Source: Oscillospiraceae bacterium
GTDB taxonomy: Bacteria; Bacillota_A; Clostridia; Oscillospirales; Oscillospiraceae
NCBI GenBank assembly: GCA_024690695.1
Contig: JAILOS010000083.1
Coordinates: 1 to 7,049 of the forward strand
DNA: 7,049 nt
Direction: 5' to 3'
Shown here: piece after piece, positions 1 through 7,049 of the stretch
Numbering within the stretch: the first letter of the stretch is position 1
Layout: each line of letters begins with the position of its first letter
The notes under the pieces: generated by a model
The model's input: the letters and a program-made list of their open reading frames with translations, nothing else
Databases searched by the model: none
Told to the model about the DNA's origin: nothing
Made by a program: the position numbers and the translations under genes

Positions 1-12
1 CTCGCTCAAAAC
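1..12. repeat. Fragment of a palindromic repeat arm at the left edge
   Basis: These 12 bases (CTCGCTCAAAAC) are identical to the last 12 bases of the window (7038-7049), where they form the outer arm of repeat copy B. The reverse complement also resembles the opposite arm of copy B (GTTTTGAGCGGG, 6941-6952; 11 of 12). The simplest reading is that a further B-type copy lies just outside the left edge and is cut by the window, so that it sits next to copy A. Because the element is palindromic, the orientation of the missing copy cannot be told. An alternative is that the two edges are the overlapping ends of one circular molecule. Confidence 0.5.
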
Positions 13-21
13 TGCTGCGCA

Positions 22-156
22 CCTGAAATAGAGAGATTTTTCTGTCAGGCGAGGCGAAAAGCGCAGAAATACTGGAAATGTATTTCGAGCATTTTCAACG
101 AAGTCTGGCAGGAAAAGATCCTTTTTCAGGCTGCCGTATCCCTGACTTGCTCGCCC
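22..156 (-). repeat. Palindromic intergenic repeat, copy A (minus orientation)
   Basis: Read on the minus strand, this is a 26-base flank (156 down to 131, beginning GGGCGAGCAA) followed by a 109-base imperfect palindrome (130 down to 22). The palindrome closes with a perfect 7-bp outer stem, CCTGAAA (22-28) with TTTCAGG (124-130), and a perfect 7-bp inner stem, GAAATAC (66-72) with GTATTTC (80-86), around a 7-base loop. It aligns with copy B (6915-7049) over the full 135 bases with no net gap: 22 of 26 in the flank and roughly 80 of 135 overall by hand count. It ends 60 bases upstream of the GTG at 217 and could lie in that gene's leader or act as a boundary. I see no ORF or transposase in it. 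It could be a mobile palindromic element (REP- or MITE-like) or a structured RNA. Confidence 0.75.
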
Positions 157-216
157 TAAAGAGAAGGAACTTTTTTGAACGCCCTTCGTCCAAAGAAGCA
201 AGAGAGGTGATCTGCC

Positions 217-561
217 GTGAAACGCCGTCTGATCCTGGGCCTGTCGGTCTGCGCCGCGCTGGTCTGCGCGCTGTTTTTCTGCCACGTCGCCGCGATGCGG
301 CCGAGCGCGGAGGCACTCTGCCGGGCCGAGGCGCTGGAATATCTGCTCTCGCAGGCCGATCCCGAGTGCCTGCCCACGATGGCGCCCTATCTCAGCGGCG
401 AGCCCGCGCTGAGCGCGCCGCCCGCGGAGGGGGAGACCGAGCGCGTGGGCGACCGGATGCTCCGCAGCGAGGATACGCTCTACTACGTCCGCCCCGGAGA
501 CGGCCGGACGATCGCCTTCGTGCGCGCGGAGCAGGAGGCATTTTCGCAGCTCGGCCGTTGA
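217..561 (+). CDS. Small exported or membrane-anchored protein of unknown function
   Basis: I do not recognise this 114-residue protein. It starts with GTG at 217, chosen because AGGTGA (204-209) lies 7 bases upstream and the next residues, KRR followed by about 20 hydrophobic residues, form a typical signal sequence or N-terminal anchor (residues 2-26). There is no lipobox, although cysteines occur at about 12, 17 and 22 within the hydrophobic stretch. The remaining 85 or so residues are soluble and acidic, with an Ala/Pro/Glu-rich middle and a C-terminal part (YYVRPGDGRTIAFVRAEQEA) that looks like a short beta-rich segment. Translation in this frame is open and ends at TGA 559-561. The next gene has its own promoter immediately downstream, so this one is probably transcribed alone. 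No promoter of its own is convincing upstream. An extracytoplasmic location is inferred from the N-terminus only. Confidence 0.7.
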   Translation: MKRRLILGLSVCAALVCALFFCHVAAMRPSAEALCRAEALEYLLSQADPECLPTMAPYLSGEPALSAPPAEGETERVGDRMLRSEDTLYYVRPGDGRTIAFVRAEQEAFSQLGR

Positions 562-635: not shown

Positions 636-1151
636 ATGGCCGCAAAAACCGTTGGAGAACTCATCAAGGAAGCCCGCACCGCCGCCAAGCTCTCGCAGCA
701 GGCGCTGGCCGAGCAGATCGAAGGGCTGAGCGCTTCGGACGTCAGCAAGGCCGAGCGCGGAGAAAAGGAACTGACGCAAGCCCAGCTCAAGGCGATCGCA
801 AAGGCGACCGGCGTGACGCAGAAGTCGCTGCTCGAAGCGGCGGCCGCGAAGAAGCCCGCCGCGTCAACGGCCGCGAAGAAACCGGCGGCGAGCGCGAAGA
901 AACCGGCTTCGACGAGCGCCGCGAAGAAGCCCGCCTCGACGGCTGCGAAAAAGGCGGAGGAGATCACGCTCACGGCCGCGGAAAAGAAGCTGCTGGAGCT
1001 CTACCGCGCCGCGGATTCCGACACGAAGAAGGCGGCGGTCGCCGTGCTCAAGGGCGAAAAGCCGGAGGACAGCGGCGTGCTCGGCAGCCTGCTGAACATG
1101 ATCGGCGGCACTGACGTCGTCGGCGGCCTCCTCGGCAGCCTGAAAAAATAA
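636..1151 (+). CDS. XRE-family DNA-binding protein with histone-H1-like Ala/Lys/Pro linker
   Basis: This 171-residue protein has three parts. Residues 7-64 form an XRE/Cro-type helix-turn-helix (KLSQQALAEQIEGLSASDVS, then KAERGEKELT and a closing helix), which should bind DNA. Residues 68-109 are a low-complexity linker with four AKKPA units and a final AAKK, like the basic tails of bacterial H1-like proteins (Hc1, BpH1, AlgP). Residues 110-141 (TAAEKKLLELYRAADSDTKK) resemble the C-terminal helix found after the HTH in many clostridial XRE regulators. The last 25 residues are Gly/Leu-rich and hydrophobic (GVLGSLLNMIGG, VVGGLLGSL) and may mediate self-association. The ATG at 636 is supported by GGGAGG (621-626), 9 bases upstream. 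It is monocistronic, between its own promoter and a strong terminator. It could be a sequence-specific regulator or a nucleoid-associated protein; the basic linker favours non-specific DNA contacts. No target is evident. Confidence 0.85.
   Translation: MAAKTVGELIKEARTAAKLSQQALAEQIEGLSASDVSKAERGEKELTQAQLKAIAKATGVTQKSLLEAAAAKKPAASTAAKKPAASAKKPASTSAAKKPASTAAKKAEEITLTAAEKKLLELYRAADSDTKKAAVAVLKGEKPEDSGVLGSLLNMIGGTDVVGGLLGSLKK
843..953 (+). repeat. In-gene repeat encoding Ala-Lys-Lys-Pro units
   Basis: The DNA under residues 70-106 of the XRE-like protein carries imperfect repeats of the type GCGAAGAAGCCCGCC and GCGAAGAAACCGGCG, encoding AKKPA with short Ser/Thr spacers. The synonymous differences between units indicate an old repeat rather than a recent slippage event. 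Such tracts often vary in unit number between strains. Confidence 0.7.
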
Positions 1152-1409: not shown

Positions 1410-1437
1410 ATGAAATTGGGAAAGTATTTGTTAATCT

Positions 1438-1457
1438 GCAGACCGCTTGCGGTCTGC
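1438..1457. promoter_or_regulatory. Perfect 9-bp dyad in the operon leader
   Basis: GCAGACCGC (1438-1446), a TT loop, and GCGGTCTGC (1449-1457) form a perfect inverted repeat about 22 bases after the predicted transcription start and just before the ribosome binding site (GGGAGGAGGAG, 1463-1473). There is no T-run after it, so it is not a terminator. As DNA it could be an operator for a dimeric repressor. As RNA it could be a leader hairpin affecting stability or ribosome access. Confidence 0.5.
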
Positions 1458-1478
1458 GGAGCGGGAGGAGGAGCCGGC

Positions 1479-3146
1479 ATGAAAGAGCTGAAGAGAACGA
1501 AGAGGGCGCTCGCCCTGGCGCTGGCGCTCGTCTCGCTGCTGCTCCTCCTCTCCGCCTGCGCGCCGCCGGGCGGCCCGCAGAACGTGCCGGAGGGGGAACC
1601 GGATCCGCCCCGGCAGTTCTCCCGCTTCCTCGTCGCCGTGGAGGACGAGCCGGACACCGTGGACTTCCAGTGCACGACGATCCACTACACGATCGCCCAG
1701 AACGTGTTTGACCGTCTGGTCGAGATGGAAAACGACGCGGAGGGGAACGCGGTGATCCGGCCCTCGCTGGCCGGGAAACCGGAGATCTCCGAGGACCGCT
1801 GCCGCTACACCTTCCGGCTGCGTCCGGGCGTCACCTTCAGCAACGGCTCGCCGCTCACCGCCTCGGACGTGGAATACACCTTTACGCGCCTGCTGACGCA
1901 TCCCGATTCCTGCAACCGCGACATCGTCGAAGAGATCGTCGGCGCGGAGGCGCTGGAGCAGGGGAAGGCGAAGCGGCTGGAGGGCTTCCGGGTCCTCGGC
2001 AAGCTGGAGTTTGAAATCACGCTGAACCAGCCCTTCGAGGCTTTTCTGGCCTGCCTGTCGATGCCCGGCGCCTCGATCCTCGACGCCGAGACGACCGAAG
2101 AGGCCGGAAGCCGCTTCGGGACCGAGCCGGAATGGACGGTCGGCACCGGCTCGTTCATTCTGAGCGGCTGGGACAGCGGCAAGGGCATGACGCTCACGGC
2201 CAATCCGAACTGCTGGCGCGGCGCGCCGAAATGCGAGGGGCTGGAGCTCCTGTTCCTGGAGGATCCGGAGGAGATCCGGGAGCTGTTTGAAAACGGGGAG
2301 CTGGACGTGCTGAATCTCGACGACGTCGGGAACTCGGCCGAGTTTTACCTGCACGGCACGGACTATCGGGACCGTCTCTACCGGGTCAACCGCATCAGCA
2401 TCACCTATTTTGCCCTCAACGAATCCGTCGCGCCGCTGGACGACGCGCGCGTCAGAAAGGCGCTGCAGCTCGCGCTGAAGCGCTCGGCGCTGCTGGACGC
2501 GGCCTATGCCGGGCGCGGGACCGTCGAAAACGGGATCATGCCCCACGGGCTGTACGGCTTCAACCCGGAGCTGCCGGAGATCCCCTTTGATCCGGCGGAG
2601 GCCCGGCGCCTGCTGGAGGAGGCCGGATACCCCGAGGGCTTCGACCTGACCGTCAGCGTCAGCTCCGCCTCGTCGCTGAAAGAAGTGGACGTGGTCCGCG
2701 CGGCGGCGGATATGTGGGAGAAGATCGGTCTGCGGGTGAAGGTCGAGCTGCTGGAGGAGGAGGACTTCATGAGCCGGCGCAAGAGCGGCTCGCTCGCCTG
2801 CTACTCGGCCACCTGGACCGCCGATTACAACGACCCGGACAACTTTTTCTACACCTTCTTCGGAAACGAGGCGAACGCCCGTTTCCGCAGCCTCTGCTAC
2901 GCGCGGACGGAGATCATGGAGCGGGTGCGCGACGCCCGGACGATCGCCGATCCCGAGGCGCGGATCCGGGAATACCGGGAGCTGGAGCGGATCATCGTCC
3001 AGGAGGACGCCGCCTGGATCCCGCTGTTCTCCAGACAGTACGTCTACGTGTCGTCCGCGCGTCTGACAGGCATGCAGTCCTCCTGGAACGGTTCGGTCAA
3101 GAACATGTACCGGGAGATGTCCGTTGATGGAGGCGAAGCGCCATGA
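1479..3146 (+). CDS. Family 5 extracellular solute-binding lipoprotein (OppA/DppA-like)
   Basis: This 555-residue protein has a lipoprotein signal peptide (basic KELKRTKR, a hydrophobic core, lipobox LSAC with Cys27), then a Pro/Gly-rich tether to about residue 47, then the SBP_bac_5 fold. Family hallmarks are LRPGVTFSNGSPLTASDVEYTF (its core LRPG at 114-117 and LTASDVEYTF at 126-135), ALNESVAPLDDARVRKAL (from 312), EARRLLEEAGYPEGF (from 374) and NDPDN (451-455) near the usual ligand-facing region. Members bind oligopeptides, nickel or other small ligands and usually feed an ABC importer. No permease or ATPase gene is visible here; the next gene overlaps by 4 bases and encodes a c-di-GMP receptor, so a sensory role is possible. 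The ATG at 1479 is chosen over the in-frame ATG at 1410 because the latter abuts the -10 box, lacks a ribosome binding site and would disturb the signal peptide, whereas GGGAGGAGG (1463-1471) precedes 1479. The ligand cannot be named; peptides are the family default. Confidence 0.9.
   Translation: MKELKRTKRALALALALVSLLLLLSACAPPGGPQNVPEGEPDPPRQFSRFLVAVEDEPDTVDFQCTTIHYTIAQNVFDRLVEMENDAEGNAVIRPSLAGKPEISEDRCRYTFRLRPGVTFSNGSPLTASDVEYTFTRLLTHPDSCNRDIVEEIVGAEALEQGKAKRLEGFRVLGKLEFEITLNQPFEAFLACLSMPGASILDAETTEEAGSRFGTEPEWTVGTGSFILSGWDSGKGMTLTANPNCWRGAPKCEGLELLFLEDPEEIRELFENGELDVLNLDDVGNSAEFYLHGTDYRDRLYRVNRISITYFALNESVAPLDDARVRKALQLALKRSALLDAAYAGRGTVENGIMPHGLYGFNPELPEIPFDPAEARRLLEEAGYPEGFDLTVSVSSASSLKEVDVVRAAADMWEKIGLRVKVELLEEEDFMSRRKSGSLACYSATWTADYNDPDNFFYTFFGNEANARFRSLCYARTEIMERVRDARTIADPEARIREYRELERIIVQEDAAWIPLFSRQYVYVSSARLTGMQSSWNGSVKNMYREMSVDGGEAP
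3129..3146 (+). promoter_or_regulatory. Ribosome binding site and ATGA stop-start overlap
   Basis: GGAGG (3129-3133) lies inside the end of the binding-protein gene, 9 bases before the ATG at 3143. That ATG shares bases with the TGA stop at 3144-3146. This implies co-transcription and likely translational coupling, so the two proteins would be made at linked levels. A second ATG at 3149 (residue 3) is possible but less well spaced. Confidence 0.8.
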
Positions 3147-6100
3147 AAATGACTTCGATCCGATTCAAGATCACGGCGATCACGGTCGCCGTCATTCTCG
3201 TGACCTTCCTGTCCGTTTTAGCCTCCTCCTATTCCGCGATCCGGCGGGAGAATGAGCGCCGCTCGGTGGAGATCATGCGCCTGAAGGGGAGCGAGACGAA
3301 GGACGTTCTGGACCAGTATTTCATCGAGATCGAGCGGTCCGTGTGGATGTCCGCCAATCTGGCCATGGATTCGCTGGACAGCGTGGCGCTCGTGGAGTAC
3401 GGCGCGGCGGAGCCCGCCGGCCGGACGGCCGAACAGCAGGCCCTGCTGGATGCCTATCTCGCGGAGCACTGCAAGCAGATCCAGAAGGCTTTTGAGAGCG
3501 TGGCCGGCGGCAGCAACGGCGTCGTCGCCTACTATTACTGCATCAATCCGGAGGTCAGCGAGACGGAGCACGGCTTCTTCTATTCGCGGATCGGCAAGGC
3601 GGGCTACATCGAGCGGGAGCCGCTGGACGCGAGCAAGCTGGATCCGGACGATCTCGAGCACAGCACCTGGTATTTTTCCGCGATCGAACGCGGGCAGCCC
3701 TCCTGGATCGGCCCTTACACCGCGCAATTTCTCGAGGAGGAGTGGATCTGCTCGTATCTGATCCCGGTCTACAAGTCCGGCGTGCTGATCGGCGTGATGG
3801 GGATGGACATCCCGATGGAGACCCTGTTCGAGCAGGTCAAGCCCATCCGCGTTTACGACACCGGCTTTGCCAGCCTCTGCGACGATGAAGGCCGCAACTA
3901 CTACTATCCGGAGCTCGAGCAGGGCCTTGCCCCGGAGATCACCGAGCTGACGGCCGCGGGCGACCTGCTCAGGCGCGGGAACAGCGGCGACGAGCTGATC
4001 CGCTATACGGCCAACGGCGAAAAGCGGCAGATGTCGATGACCACCCTGCGCAACGGCATGAAGCTGATCATCACCGCGCCCGTGCGCGAGATCAACGCCT
4101 CGTGGCAGCGCCTGGTCCGCAGAGTGCTGACCGTCGCGGCGCTCGTCATCCTGGCCTATGCGATGGCACTGATGTTCATCATGGGCTTTCTCACCCGTCC
4201 GCTGCGGGTGCTGACCGCGGCGGCCGGAAAGCTCGCCGAGGGCGATTACGACGTGGACCTGCCCTACAAAAGCCGCGACGAGGTGGGCGAGCTGACCCTG
4301 GCCTTCCGGCAGATGCGCGACCGGCTCCGGAGCTATATCGAGGACCTCAGCCGCCGCGTCTATACCGACGCGCTGACCGGACTGCCGAACATGCGCAGCT
4401 TTTTCCGGCGGGCCACGGACGAGAAGCAGACGCTGGCCGACGCGGACGAACAGCCCGCCATGCTGTATTTCGACGTCATCGGCATGAAGTTTTTCAACCA
4501 GCAGTACGGCTTTGAAGAGGGCGACCGGCTGCTGTGCGAGATCGGCCGGATCCTGAGCCGGCAGTTCGGAGAGCGGAGAGTCTGCCGCTTCAGCGAGGAC
4601 CACTTCGCCGCCGTCGGCGCCGAGGAGGGGCTGGAGGAGCGGCTGGAGGCCGTTTTCCGGGAGGTTCAGGAGGTCAACGGCGGCAAGACCGCTCCCCTCC
4701 GGGTGGGGGTCTATCCCTGCCGGCTTGGTCAGGTCGGCCCCGCCGTCGCCTGCGACCACGCCAAATACGCCTGCGACCGGCTCAAGGGGACCTATTCCTC
4801 CGGCTATATCTGGTTCGACAACGACATGCTCGGGCAGCTTGACGATACGCGCTATATCATCGACCATCTGGATCAGGCGCTCACGGAGGGCTGGATCAAG
4901 GTCTATTACCAGCCGATCATCCGCACGGTCAACAGCCGCGTCTGCGACGAGGAGGCGCTCTCCCGCTGGATCGACCCGAAGCGCGGCTTCCTTTCTCCCG
5001 CCGTCTTCATCCCGATCCTGGAGAACGCCCGCCTGATCTACAAGCTCGATCTCTACGTGCTGGACCAGATCCTGGAGAAGATGCAGGCCCAGAAGAAGGC
5101 GGGGCTGCAGGTCGTGCCGCATTCGCTGAACCTCTCGCGCGACGACTTTGACGTCTGCGACGTCGTCGAGGAGATCCGCCGCCGCGTGGACGAGGCCGGC
5201 ATCCCGCGCGACCGGCTGACGATCGAGGTCACCGAGAGCATCATCGGCAGAGACTTCGACTTTATGAAGGAGCAGATCAGGCGCTTCCGGGCGCTCGGCT
5301 TCAAGGTCTGGATGGACGATTTCGGCAGCGGCTACTCCTCGCTGGACGTGCTGCACGAGATCCGCTTCGACCTGATCAAGTTCGACATGAGCTTCATGCG
5401 CCGCTTCGACGAGGGGGACGAGAGCCGCATCATTCTCACGGAGCTGGTGCGCATGGCCGTCAGCCTCGGGCTGGACACGGTGTGCGAGGGCGTCGAGACC
5501 CCGGCGCAGGTCGAGTTCCTGCGCGAGATCGGCTGCAGCAAGCTGCAGGGCTATTATTACTGCAAGCCCATTCCCTACGAGAGCATCCTGGAGCGTTACG
5601 ACAGCGGCAGACAGATCGGCTTTGAAAACCCCGAGGAATCGGCCTATTACGAGTCGATCGGCCGCGTCAACCTCTTCGACCTCACGTCGATCGCCTCCCG
5701 CGGGGAGAACGAAGGACGGCAGTACAGCAACGCGCTGCCCGTGGGCGTCATGGAGATCCGGAAGGAGCGCGTGCGCTTCGTGCGCGCGAACAAGGCCTTC
5801 CGCGACTTCATGCAGCGCGCCTTCGACTTCAACCTCGAGGAGCGGGAATTCGGCTTCCCCGAGCAGGTCGAGGGCTCCGGCGCGTCCTTCATGCGGATGG
5901 TCCGCCGCTGCTGCGACGAGGGCAGCCGCGCGTTCTACGACGGGCGCCTGCCCGACGGCTCACTTGCGCACATCATCATCAACAGCGTATCCAGAAACCC
6001 GATCAACGGCGCCCAGGCCGTTCTGATCGCGGTGCTCTCCGTCACGGAGCCGGACAAGAGCACGACCTACGCGGACATTGCCCGCGCGCTGGCCGCGGAC

Positions 6101-6862
6101 TACTACAACATTTACGTCGTGGATCTGGATTCGGAGCGTTTCATCGAATACAGCTCCAAGGCCGGCGACGAGGAGCTGGCGATCGAGCGTCACGGCGAGG
6201 GCTTCTTCACCGCGGTGAAGCGCGACTCCGTCACCCGCATCTTCGAGGCGGACCGGGAGCCCTTCCTCAGGTCCTTCTCGAAGGAGAACATCGTGCGCGA
6301 GCTCGAGGTCCAGGGCTCTTTCCTGTACACCTACCGGCTGATCGACACCGGCGCGCCGCTGTACGCCAACATGAAGATCACGCGCATGTCCGGTGGCAAC
6401 CGGATCATTATGGGCATCAGCATCGTCGACGCGCAGATGAAGCAGCAGGAGGCCGAGGAGCGGGAGAAGCAGGAGCGTCTGGCCTTCGAGTGGGTCGCGG
6501 CGCTCGCCGGCGGCTACCTTGCGATCTATTCGGTCGACCCGGGAAACAACAGCTTTTTCGAGTACAGCGCCTCCAGTGAGTACGAGGCCTTCGGCATCGT
6601 CAAGCAGGGCGAGGACTTTTTCGAAAAGCTGCGCGAAAACTCGCCGCGCTTCGTCGTGCCGGAGGATCTGCCGGCCTATTCGCAGATCGCCACGAAGGAG
6701 AATATGCTGCGCGAGATCGCCCGCAGCGGCCTGTTCGCCTATCACTACCGCCTGCTGGTGGACGGAACGCCCTGCCCCGTCAGCCTGCGCGCCGCGCTGG
6801 TGAAGGAAAACGGCGTCGACCGGCTGATCATCGGCATCAACCGCACGGAAAACGCGAGCTGA
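3143..6862 (+). CDS. dCache-HAMP-GGDEF(degenerate)-EAL-PAS-like x3 c-di-GMP signalling protein, predicted phosphodiesterase
   Basis: This is a 1239-residue membrane receptor. TM1 is at about 9-31. An extracellular dCache-type sensor spans about 33-325 (WYF from W176, GMDI ending the first lobe near D222). TM2 is at 328-350 and HAMP at 351-403. The GGDEF domain (about 406-565) keeps DALTGLPN (409-416), but its signature is SEDHF (484-488), the substrate-site stretch reads DVIGMKFFNQ (444-453), and no RxxD inhibitory site is present, so cyclase activity is unlikely. The EAL domain (about 580-815) has the expected residues: E604 of EAL, N663, E695, D725/D726 (DDFGSGYSS), K746, D748, E782, E785 and Q802, so it should hydrolyse c-di-GMP to pGpG. 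After it come a PAS-like module (about 860-970) and two mutually similar PAS-like modules (about 982-1095 and 1118-1236) joined by a charged helix (1099-1117). No output domain follows. The overlapping binding-protein gene suggests ligand input through dCache; GTP binding by the GGDEF domain might tune EAL, as in Caulobacter PdeA. Both are inference. Confidence 0.93.
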   Translation: MKMTSIRFKITAITVAVILVTFLSVLASSYSAIRRENERRSVEIMRLKGSETKDVLDQYFIEIERSVWMSANLAMDSLDSVALVEYGAAEPAGRTAEQQALLDAYLAEHCKQIQKAFESVAGGSNGVVAYYYCINPEVSETEHGFFYSRIGKAGYIEREPLDASKLDPDDLEHSTWYFSAIERGQPSWIGPYTAQFLEEEWICSYLIPVYKSGVLIGVMGMDIPMETLFEQVKPIRVYDTGFASLCDDEGRNYYYPELEQGLAPEITELTAAGDLLRRGNSGDELIRYTANGEKRQMSMTTLRNGMKLIITAPVREINASWQRLVRRVLTVAALVILAYAMALMFIMGFLTRPLRVLTAAAGKLAEGDYDVDLPYKSRDEVGELTLAFRQMRDRLRSYIEDLSRRVYTDALTGLPNMRSFFRRATDEKQTLADADEQPAMLYFDVIGMKFFNQQYGFEEGDRLLCEIGRILSRQFGERRVCRFSEDHFAAVGAEEGLEERLEAVFREVQEVNGGKTAPLRVGVYPCRLGQVGPAVACDHAKYACDRLKGTYSSGYIWFDNDMLGQLDDTRYIIDHLDQALTEGWIKVYYQPIIRTVNSRVCDEEALSRWIDPKRGFLSPAVFIPILENARLIYKLDLYVLDQILEKMQAQKKAGLQVVPHSLNLSRDDFDVCDVVEEIRRRVDEAGIPRDRLTIEVTESIIGRDFDFMKEQIRRFRALGFKVWMDDFGSGYSSLDVLHEIRFDLIKFDMSFMRRFDEGDESRIILTELVRMAVSLGLDTVCEGVETPAQVEFLREIGCSKLQGYYYCKPIPYESILERYDSGRQIGFENPEESAYYESIGRVNLFDLTSIASRGENEGRQYSNALPVGVMEIRKERVRFVRANKAFRDFMQRAFDFNLEEREFGFPEQVEGSGASFMRMVRRCCDEGSRAFYDGRLPDGSLAHIIINSVSRNPINGAQAVLIAVLSVTEPDKSTTYADIARALAADYYNIYVVDLDSERFIEYSSKAGDEELAIERHGEGFFTAVKRDSVTRIFEADREPFLRSFSKENIVRELEVQGSFLYTYRLIDTGAPLYANMKITRMSGGNRIIMGISIVDAQMKQQEAEEREKQERLAFEWVAALAGGYLAIYSVDPGNNSFFEYSASSEYEAFGIVKQGEDFFEKLRENSPRFVVPEDLPAYSQIATKENMLREIARSGLFAYHYRLLVDGTPCPVSLRAALVKENGVDRLIIGINRTENAS

Positions 6863-6914
6863 GCCCGACGGAGTTCGGATTCGGCCGCGCCGCAAACGAA
6901 AAACCGCCCCAAAA

Positions 6915-7049
6915 GGGCGAGCAAATTAGGGAGACGACAGGTTTTGAGCGGGCCTTTTCCGCCCAAGCTTCATGAAAAATTGCGGAAATACAGACAAGTA
7001 TTCCCGCAATTTTTCATTTTGCCTGAACGAAAAATCCCTCGCTCAAAAC
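6915..7049 (+). repeat. Palindromic intergenic repeat, copy B (plus orientation)
   Basis: A 26-base flank (6915-6940, beginning GGGCGAGCAA and ending GACGACAG) precedes a 109-base imperfect palindrome (6941-7049). The palindrome has a perfect 10-bp outer stem, GTTTTGAGCG (6941-6950) with CGCTCAAAAC (7040-7049), and a 20-bp inner stem with one mismatch (6972-6991 with 6998-7017). It is the inverted partner of copy A, with the same 135-base length and the same flank and palindrome boundaries. Blocks shared with copy A include CTTTTCC (6954-6960), GAAATAC at the inner stem, GCCTGA (7021-7026) and AAAAATC followed by CTC near the end. It begins 52 bases after the stop of the EAL gene. Copy B is better paired than copy A, suggesting it is younger or better maintained. 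The nature (mobile element or RNA) is not settled. Confidence 0.78.
6972..7017. terminator. Inner hairpin of copy B, possible operon terminator
   Basis: The 20-base arms 6972-6991 and 6998-7017 pair at 19 of 20 positions around a 6-base loop (AGACAA). The stem has a short GC core (GCGG with CCGC), and five T (7010-7014) on the right arm matched by five A on the left, so it could stop transcription from either side. It is the first strong hairpin after the EAL gene, but the T-run lies within the stem rather than after a GC-rich stem, so terminator function is only plausible. Confidence 0.35.

Follow-up and report, generated by a model that had tools for sequence, protein, structure and literature searches.

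Genes and repeats of the locus

The window (the whole stretch of DNA analyzed here) is one entire contig of 7,049 bases, which is the length recorded in the protein database for the only contig listed with the large GGDEF-EAL protein. Four reading frames, all on the forward strand, lie between two segments of a repeated element (Table 1). The helix-turn-helix protein contains a long middle part rich in lysine, alanine and proline, with AAKKPA repeats, that is reminiscent of a histone H1 tail. The GGDEF domain of the large dCache-HAMP-GGDEF-EAL protein has SEDHF at the place expected for the GGDEF motif and the EAL motif is present as EEALSRW; judging from the sequence, this protein may act as a phosphodiesterase and not as a cyclase.

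Table 1. Genes, element segments and flanks in the 7,049-base window
Feature	Position	Strand	Evidence
Right half of element, copy 1	1..156	+	Profile positions 123-278, E 9.5e-46; alignment A4
Parts of copy 1: central block 1-12, linker, hairpin A ~23-130, right terminal inverted repeat 131-156		+	
Central block CTCGCTCAAAAC	1..12	+	Identical to 7038-7049; prefix-suffix overlap of 12
Flank TAAAGAGAAGGAACTTTTTTG, resembles the right half of a split terminator	157..177	+	Sequence; comparison with the complete copies, 20 of 27 of which are at an apex
Small ORF of 114 aa, starting with GTG, outside the element	217..561	+	No Pfam match
Helix-turn-helix protein, outside the element	636..1151	+	PF01381, E 3.1e-9
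Extracellular solute-binding protein, outside the element	1410..3146	+	PF00496, E 9.6e-80, scan from 1479; start may be 1479
dCache-HAMP-GGDEF-EAL protein, outside the element	3143..6862	+	Pfam domains
Flank ACGAAAAACCGCCCCAAAA, following the GGDEF-EAL gene; resembles the left half of a split terminator	6896..6914	+	Sequence
Left terminal inverted repeat, copy 2	6915..6940	+	Profile, alignment A4; end pattern drawn from such ends
Hairpin B of copy 2, closing with central block 7038-7049 at the contig end	6941..7049	+	Profile; left half 95% identical to L142

The repeats had been described in an earlier note on this DNA as an inverted pair of 135-base palindromic units (22-156 on the reverse strand and 6915-7049 on the forward strand), matching at about 80 of 135 positions, that brackets the locus. 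The similarity is real: ungapped comparison of the two segments yields 81 identities over the 135 bases, compared with 34.5±5.2 (maximum 52) in 1000 dinucleotide shuffles, and the palindromic part alone has 59 identities over 109 bases, compared with 27.9±4.9 (maximum 43), so that a match no better than that between shuffled sequences, the doubt raised in the same note, can be put aside. The extent of the unit had to be revised. The 135-base unit is only about half of one element, complete copies of which are mostly 276-279 bases long, and the first copy does not begin at base 22, given that a profile of complete copies assigns all of the first 156 bases to the element; the same profile matches bases 6915-7048 at positions 1-133 (E 3e-37), also on the forward strand. 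Compared with a complete copy in L142, the right half (1-156) is 91% identical and the left half 95% identical. Judged from these alignments, the two window repeats come from two copies in direct orientation, the first being a right half and the second a left half, and they look inverted because the element itself consists of two related long, imperfect hairpins placed tail to tail. The identity of the first and last 12 bases of the contig (CTCGCTCAAAAC) suggested that the contig begins and ends at an identical point within a larger element.

Structure and distribution of the complete element

A complete copy consists of a terminal inverted repeat of ~26 bases, hairpin B, a well-conserved centre, hairpin A in reversed orientation and the terminal repeat again; in most copies, the terminal repeat is close to GGGCNNGCANNNTAGGGANNCGNCAG and the centre reads CTCGCTCAAAACTGC. 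With a pattern drawn from the ends of the element, which are like GGGCNNGCANNNTAGGGA, 11 facing pairs were detected in five genomes, of which nine span 276-279 bases and the other two 215 and 222 bases, compared with no matches for the reversed-pattern control in the same five genomes. Individual genomes can contain many ends, with 20 matches in G024 and 23 in G043 (none for the control), and in G024, complete copies are most often 279 bases long. The alignment of the family (A4) has 23 rows, namely, 21 copies, one of these present twice, and the two window halves, which overlap in columns 128-139. The 21 complete rows agree fully in 129 columns, and no other 12-column stretch is better conserved than the central block, which shares first place (mean 0.976). 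The parts of the element contain no recognizable gene, only reading frames that run through them.

The element is predicted to fold extensively. One complete copy together with its flanks, folded as DNA (-106.3 kcal/mol, z -14.2), forms one stem from the terminator, one from the terminal repeats, and two long arms, and another copy, folded as RNA, adopts a similar shape (z -11.5). Changes on both sides were observed in 22 of the 31 predicted pairs in nine single hairpins, including the two window copies, and in 26 of the 74 consensus pairs of A4. These paired changes support the conservation of the fold-back shape, without telling DNA from RNA. Several partial copies (L304:331-752, L305:289-389, L307:297-398 and L284:355-468) lose the match around profile position 101-105, just after the inner part of hairpin B, and L304 has ~100 extra bases at that position.

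The end matches also bear on the placement of the element at the contig termini. The 94 end matches come from 16 of the 20 genomes examined, and 22 of them, all in four genomes (G024, G055, G104 and G146), are located 135-139 bases from a contig end; the right end of the window likewise breaks at 135 bases into the element. Other break points inside the element exist; in G043 and G055, for example, they lie at 92-96 bases. Assemblies are prone to end within the element, and the bracketing of the locus is an assembly effect: where assembly stops in a repeat, a contig starts or ends, so that the locus in between appears bracketed. Both halves point in one direction and share the 12 bases at which other contigs also break, and the view that an inverted pair marks out the locus is not supported; apart from two copies ~7 kb from each other, there is no sign of a biological marking-out. 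In some relatives, the family is common enough to end contigs, which explains a share of the contig ends in those genomes and makes it a trap for readers of contigs.

Relatives were reached through the large GGDEF-EAL protein, whose best named relatives come from metagenome-assembled genomes, mostly ruminant, with two labelled Ruminococcaceae at 64% identity and one at 62% (best segment). Weak DNA matches in the relatives share the hairpin core within several different terminal repeats, as if, by the look of these sequences, the core were reused with different ends in related genomes. One such core is enclosed by terminal repeats of five or more kinds (L112, L117, L119, L041, L083 and L139), in units of mostly 161-166 bases in total. 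Several weak matches, for example, L082, L092, L095, L097, L098, L106 and L110, resembled coding or unrelated sequence by eye and were set aside. A profile built without the window copies recovered window hairpin B at E 1.9e-7 and hairpin A at E 1.4e-5 in a search of ~1.4 Mb, a test that is partly circular because most of its seeds were chosen by similarity to B, L070 also by weak similarity to A, and L041 by the family motif. The covariance model, built from eight sequences including the two window copies, matched 10 of the 12 genomes of protein relatives at E 0.01. At E 0.001, it matched 84 of the 149 relatives of G002 (72 at E 1e-6, by our own count), compared with four of 299 genomes across the phylum at E 1e-6, G002 among these four; all these counts are lower bounds, with no more than 26 candidates per genome scored in the relatives of G002 and no more than 13 across the phylum, so that the two surveys are not strictly comparable. 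The family thus has many copies in relatives, which removes the possibility, considered in the earlier note, that there were none beyond the window. Among the matches listed for the relatives of G002, at least 21 pairs of a forward and a reverse match ~11 bases apart were counted by eye, that is, inverted pairs of one palindrome in the doublet arrangement of the REPIN definition. The exact 26-base flank pattern had no matches in all genome contigs and none in viral contigs, the repeat had no match in plasmid and phage records, and an Rfam search of the window returned no family at its cut-off, only sub-threshold matches.

Position at hairpin tips

In 20 of the 27 distinct complete copies, the element sits at the apex of a hairpin, with the stem ending no more than six bases from the element on both sides. 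The same test was passed by 23 of 4600 random points and by 95 of 3739 points chosen 5-120 bases downstream of reading frames of at least 150 codons. The 27 copies do not include L147 (the orthologue of L146), L186, L217, L164 and L221 (flank missing at a contig end), L155 (the same as L210) and L214 (the same as L148), repeated loci already counted, partial copies and late-found copies. The pairing between left and right flanks has a mean score of 10.66, compared with 6.56±0.33 for re-paired flanks (maximum 8.30 in 20 000 permutations), in a set of 28 rows with one duplicate (L279 is the same as L156, and both are within the 28). TTTT at the right end of the stem is a trait of intrinsic terminators and was flagged by a script in 13 of the 20 apex copies; some of the apex stems may not be terminators. 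Most apex copies have AA at both edges, and the edge letters AA|GGGC and GCCC(T)AA could belong to the element or to a duplicated target. The seven copies that are not at an apex by this measure (L143, L144, L149, L172, L191, L200 and L213) could result from recombination between copies or from misassembly; L200 adjoins an intact hairpin, and the right flank of L143 alone resembles half a terminator.

Comparison of orthologous sites points in the same direction. The insertion in L146, which is shared with the orthologous L147, has empty counterparts in L222 and L224, each of which is an intact hairpin (99 genomes searched). A second query, with the flanks of L174, matched 60 of the 99 genomes, G024 itself included, and none of the matches listed spanned the junction. 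The apex position was found in none of 21 short relatives with four other kinds of terminal repeat, L112 being a narrow miss with a 10-base gap. The hairpin core is clear in 15 of these 21 (E 1e-3 or better with a single-hairpin profile), the other six being L120:1673-1837, L129, L136, L001, L002 and L101.

The right-hand copy in the window has as its left flank AAAAACCGCCCCAAAA, directly after the GGDEF-EAL gene; the left-hand copy has TAAAGAGAAGGAACTTTTTT as its right flank, and the partner half of 157-177 is outside the contig. The flank at 6896-6914 does not pair with 157-196 (score 5.0), so that the two halves probably belong to different insertions; as far as their sequences indicate, these flanks look like halves of two separate terminators.

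Mobility, alternative explanations and known systems

The most likely interpretation of the family is a non-autonomous, MITE-like element that is mobilized in trans by a putative transposase and inserts at terminator tips. For the window, we put the probability that the contig begins in one copy and ends in another copy of such a ~279-base MITE-type mobile element, located at hairpin apices, at roughly 0.78. A transposase made elsewhere would recognize the element ends and would insert the element at the tips of GC-rich hairpins, most of them intrinsic terminators, whereby the stem would be lengthened rather than broken and the genes would be spared. A fuller version, for which the odds appear about even, is that the transposase recognizes extruded terminator hairpins and inserts the element, a three-way junction, in the loop, that termination survives and all terminators are harmless landing sites, and that the terminal repeats set the targeting whereas the core is reused by relatives with other ends and no such preference. 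The earlier note had proposed a mobile palindrome, of either MITE or REP type: the MITE-type reading is supported by the many copies, sharp ends, empty orthologous sites and compensatory changes, and a REP/RAYT origin gained little support. The model search of relatives and the check for empty sites suggested there proved productive, yielding the many copies and the one insertion with two empty orthologues.

No facing ends of the exact pattern more than ~350 bases apart, as expected of an autonomous copy, were found in 84 draft genomes (20 plus 64), so that mobilization in trans can only be inferred; the exact pattern could miss a diverged end, 22 of these 84 genomes had any exact end match, and such repeats assemble badly in drafts. 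When single ends were followed, no larger copy was found beside any. Fourteen of 20 such regions are at a contig end, and the six examined comprise four complete copies, with the other end off-pattern, and two partial ones; six further regions include one complete copy, one with an extra insert of ~100 bases, two partial copies and two without the element. A 1.4 kb reading frame after two of the partial copies, the only frame scanned, had no Pfam match.

The position at terminators could in part reflect survival bias, and small pneumococcal repeats are also described, in PMC3049150, as enriched downstream of genes. That such bias is the whole explanation, with insertion occurring widely, mainly harmless insertions in terminators between genes being kept and no hairpin-seeking enzyme involved, seems unlikely: this accords with the 7 of 27 copies away from an apex, but not with the precision of the others, in which each side of the stem ends within 1-6 bases of the element far more often than at downstream points, nor with the lack of apex insertion in relatives with other ends, most of which clearly have the hairpin core. 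Less likely still is mobilization as a REPIN-type element by a tyrosine transposase of the REP-associated kind (Y1). The two hairpins in inverted arrangement do resemble a REP doublet as outlined in PMC3116915, and several of these genomes have single Y1 genes (~175-200 aa); however, the Y1 search called for by the earlier note found matches in only 7 of 14 element-bearing draft genomes, with G092 and G104 among the misses, and the element is absent from 9 of the 10 Y1 regions fetched, the sole case being beside a truncated gene. Furthermore, the element is far above the 71-base spacing of one REPIN class in the same source and has terminal repeats of ~26 bases.

A dispersed structured RNA with a cellular role, the other possibility in the earlier note, fares slightly worse and is improbable. 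The pairing of both hairpins is kept through double changes, but pairing serves DNA as well as RNA, no Rfam family reaches the cut-off, the copies are beside unrelated flanks, the orthologous site is empty in two genomes, and the hairpin core occurs within several different terminal repeats. The least probable is a closed circle of 7,037 bases with one complete element, which would follow from joining the identical 12-base ends and would give 279 bases, the commonest complete length in G024. Other contigs break at the same centre, no replication gene is named among the four genes, and the outer flanks are unpaired, unlike those of most single insertions, although 7 of 27 single insertions fail likewise; the circular contig was rejected because the outer flanks do not match.

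An element of MITE type inserted at hairpin tips has partial parallels among known systems. Bacterial MITEs, for example, RUP of Streptococcus pneumoniae, are likewise short, non-coding, folded and multicopy, with terminal inverted repeats (PMC3049150, PMC10969869), whereas the present element has two opposed long hairpins and the hairpin-tip position, and no parent transposon was found in the genomes searched. The unit of REPINs and BIMEs also consists of two related, inverted palindromes (PMC3116915) but the present element has ~279 bases and ~26-base terminal repeats, and no Y1 gene was found in half of the 14 draft genomes. The insertion sequences IS1397, ISKpn1 and ISPsy8, among others, target REP sequences, and thus likewise insert into palindromes, ISPsy8 being located at the symmetry axis of a predicted hairpin with a 3-base duplication (PMC1525189); in the account given there, they encode a transposase and are directed to a single repeat family, unlike the present non-coding element, which targets unrelated hairpins. 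SPRITE of S. pneumoniae is another interspersed repeat tied to a terminator-like structure near gene ends (PMC3049150); as described, SPRITE is itself terminator-like, whereas the present element sits within the tip of a hairpin present even where the element is absent. No description of MITE insertion into terminator loops was found in the open-access literature searched, judged by titles and abstract openings, and within that scope the repeat family is real, undescribed and unusual in its hairpin-tip position. If the proposed targeting is true, terminators would serve as a safe landing site recognized by hairpin shape, not sequence, an unusual and testable mode for a small bacterial mobile element.

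Several additional repeats and genes were observed in these genomes. A truncated IS200-like transposase fragment (L294:1411-1650 and 1806-2084, reverse strand) lies ~156 bases from the element copy in G041, and the Y1 genes of ~175-200 aa in L295, L296, L298 and L301 seemingly contain in-frame repeat-derived inserts (RGDPCGRP and ARVAPT peptides). Another dispersed sequence, like GTCATCCTGAG..GAAGGATC, is found near element copies or remnants in L139, L191 and L284. In the G065 genome (2.7 Mb, many contigs), the ends GGAARCGCTGAWTAAATCG are matched 58 times in forward and 61 times in reverse orientation, with none for the control, which is enough for up to ~60 copies; many of the listed pairs span 161 bases, and some are shorter. 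These ends presumably resemble those of IS5-type insertion sequences.
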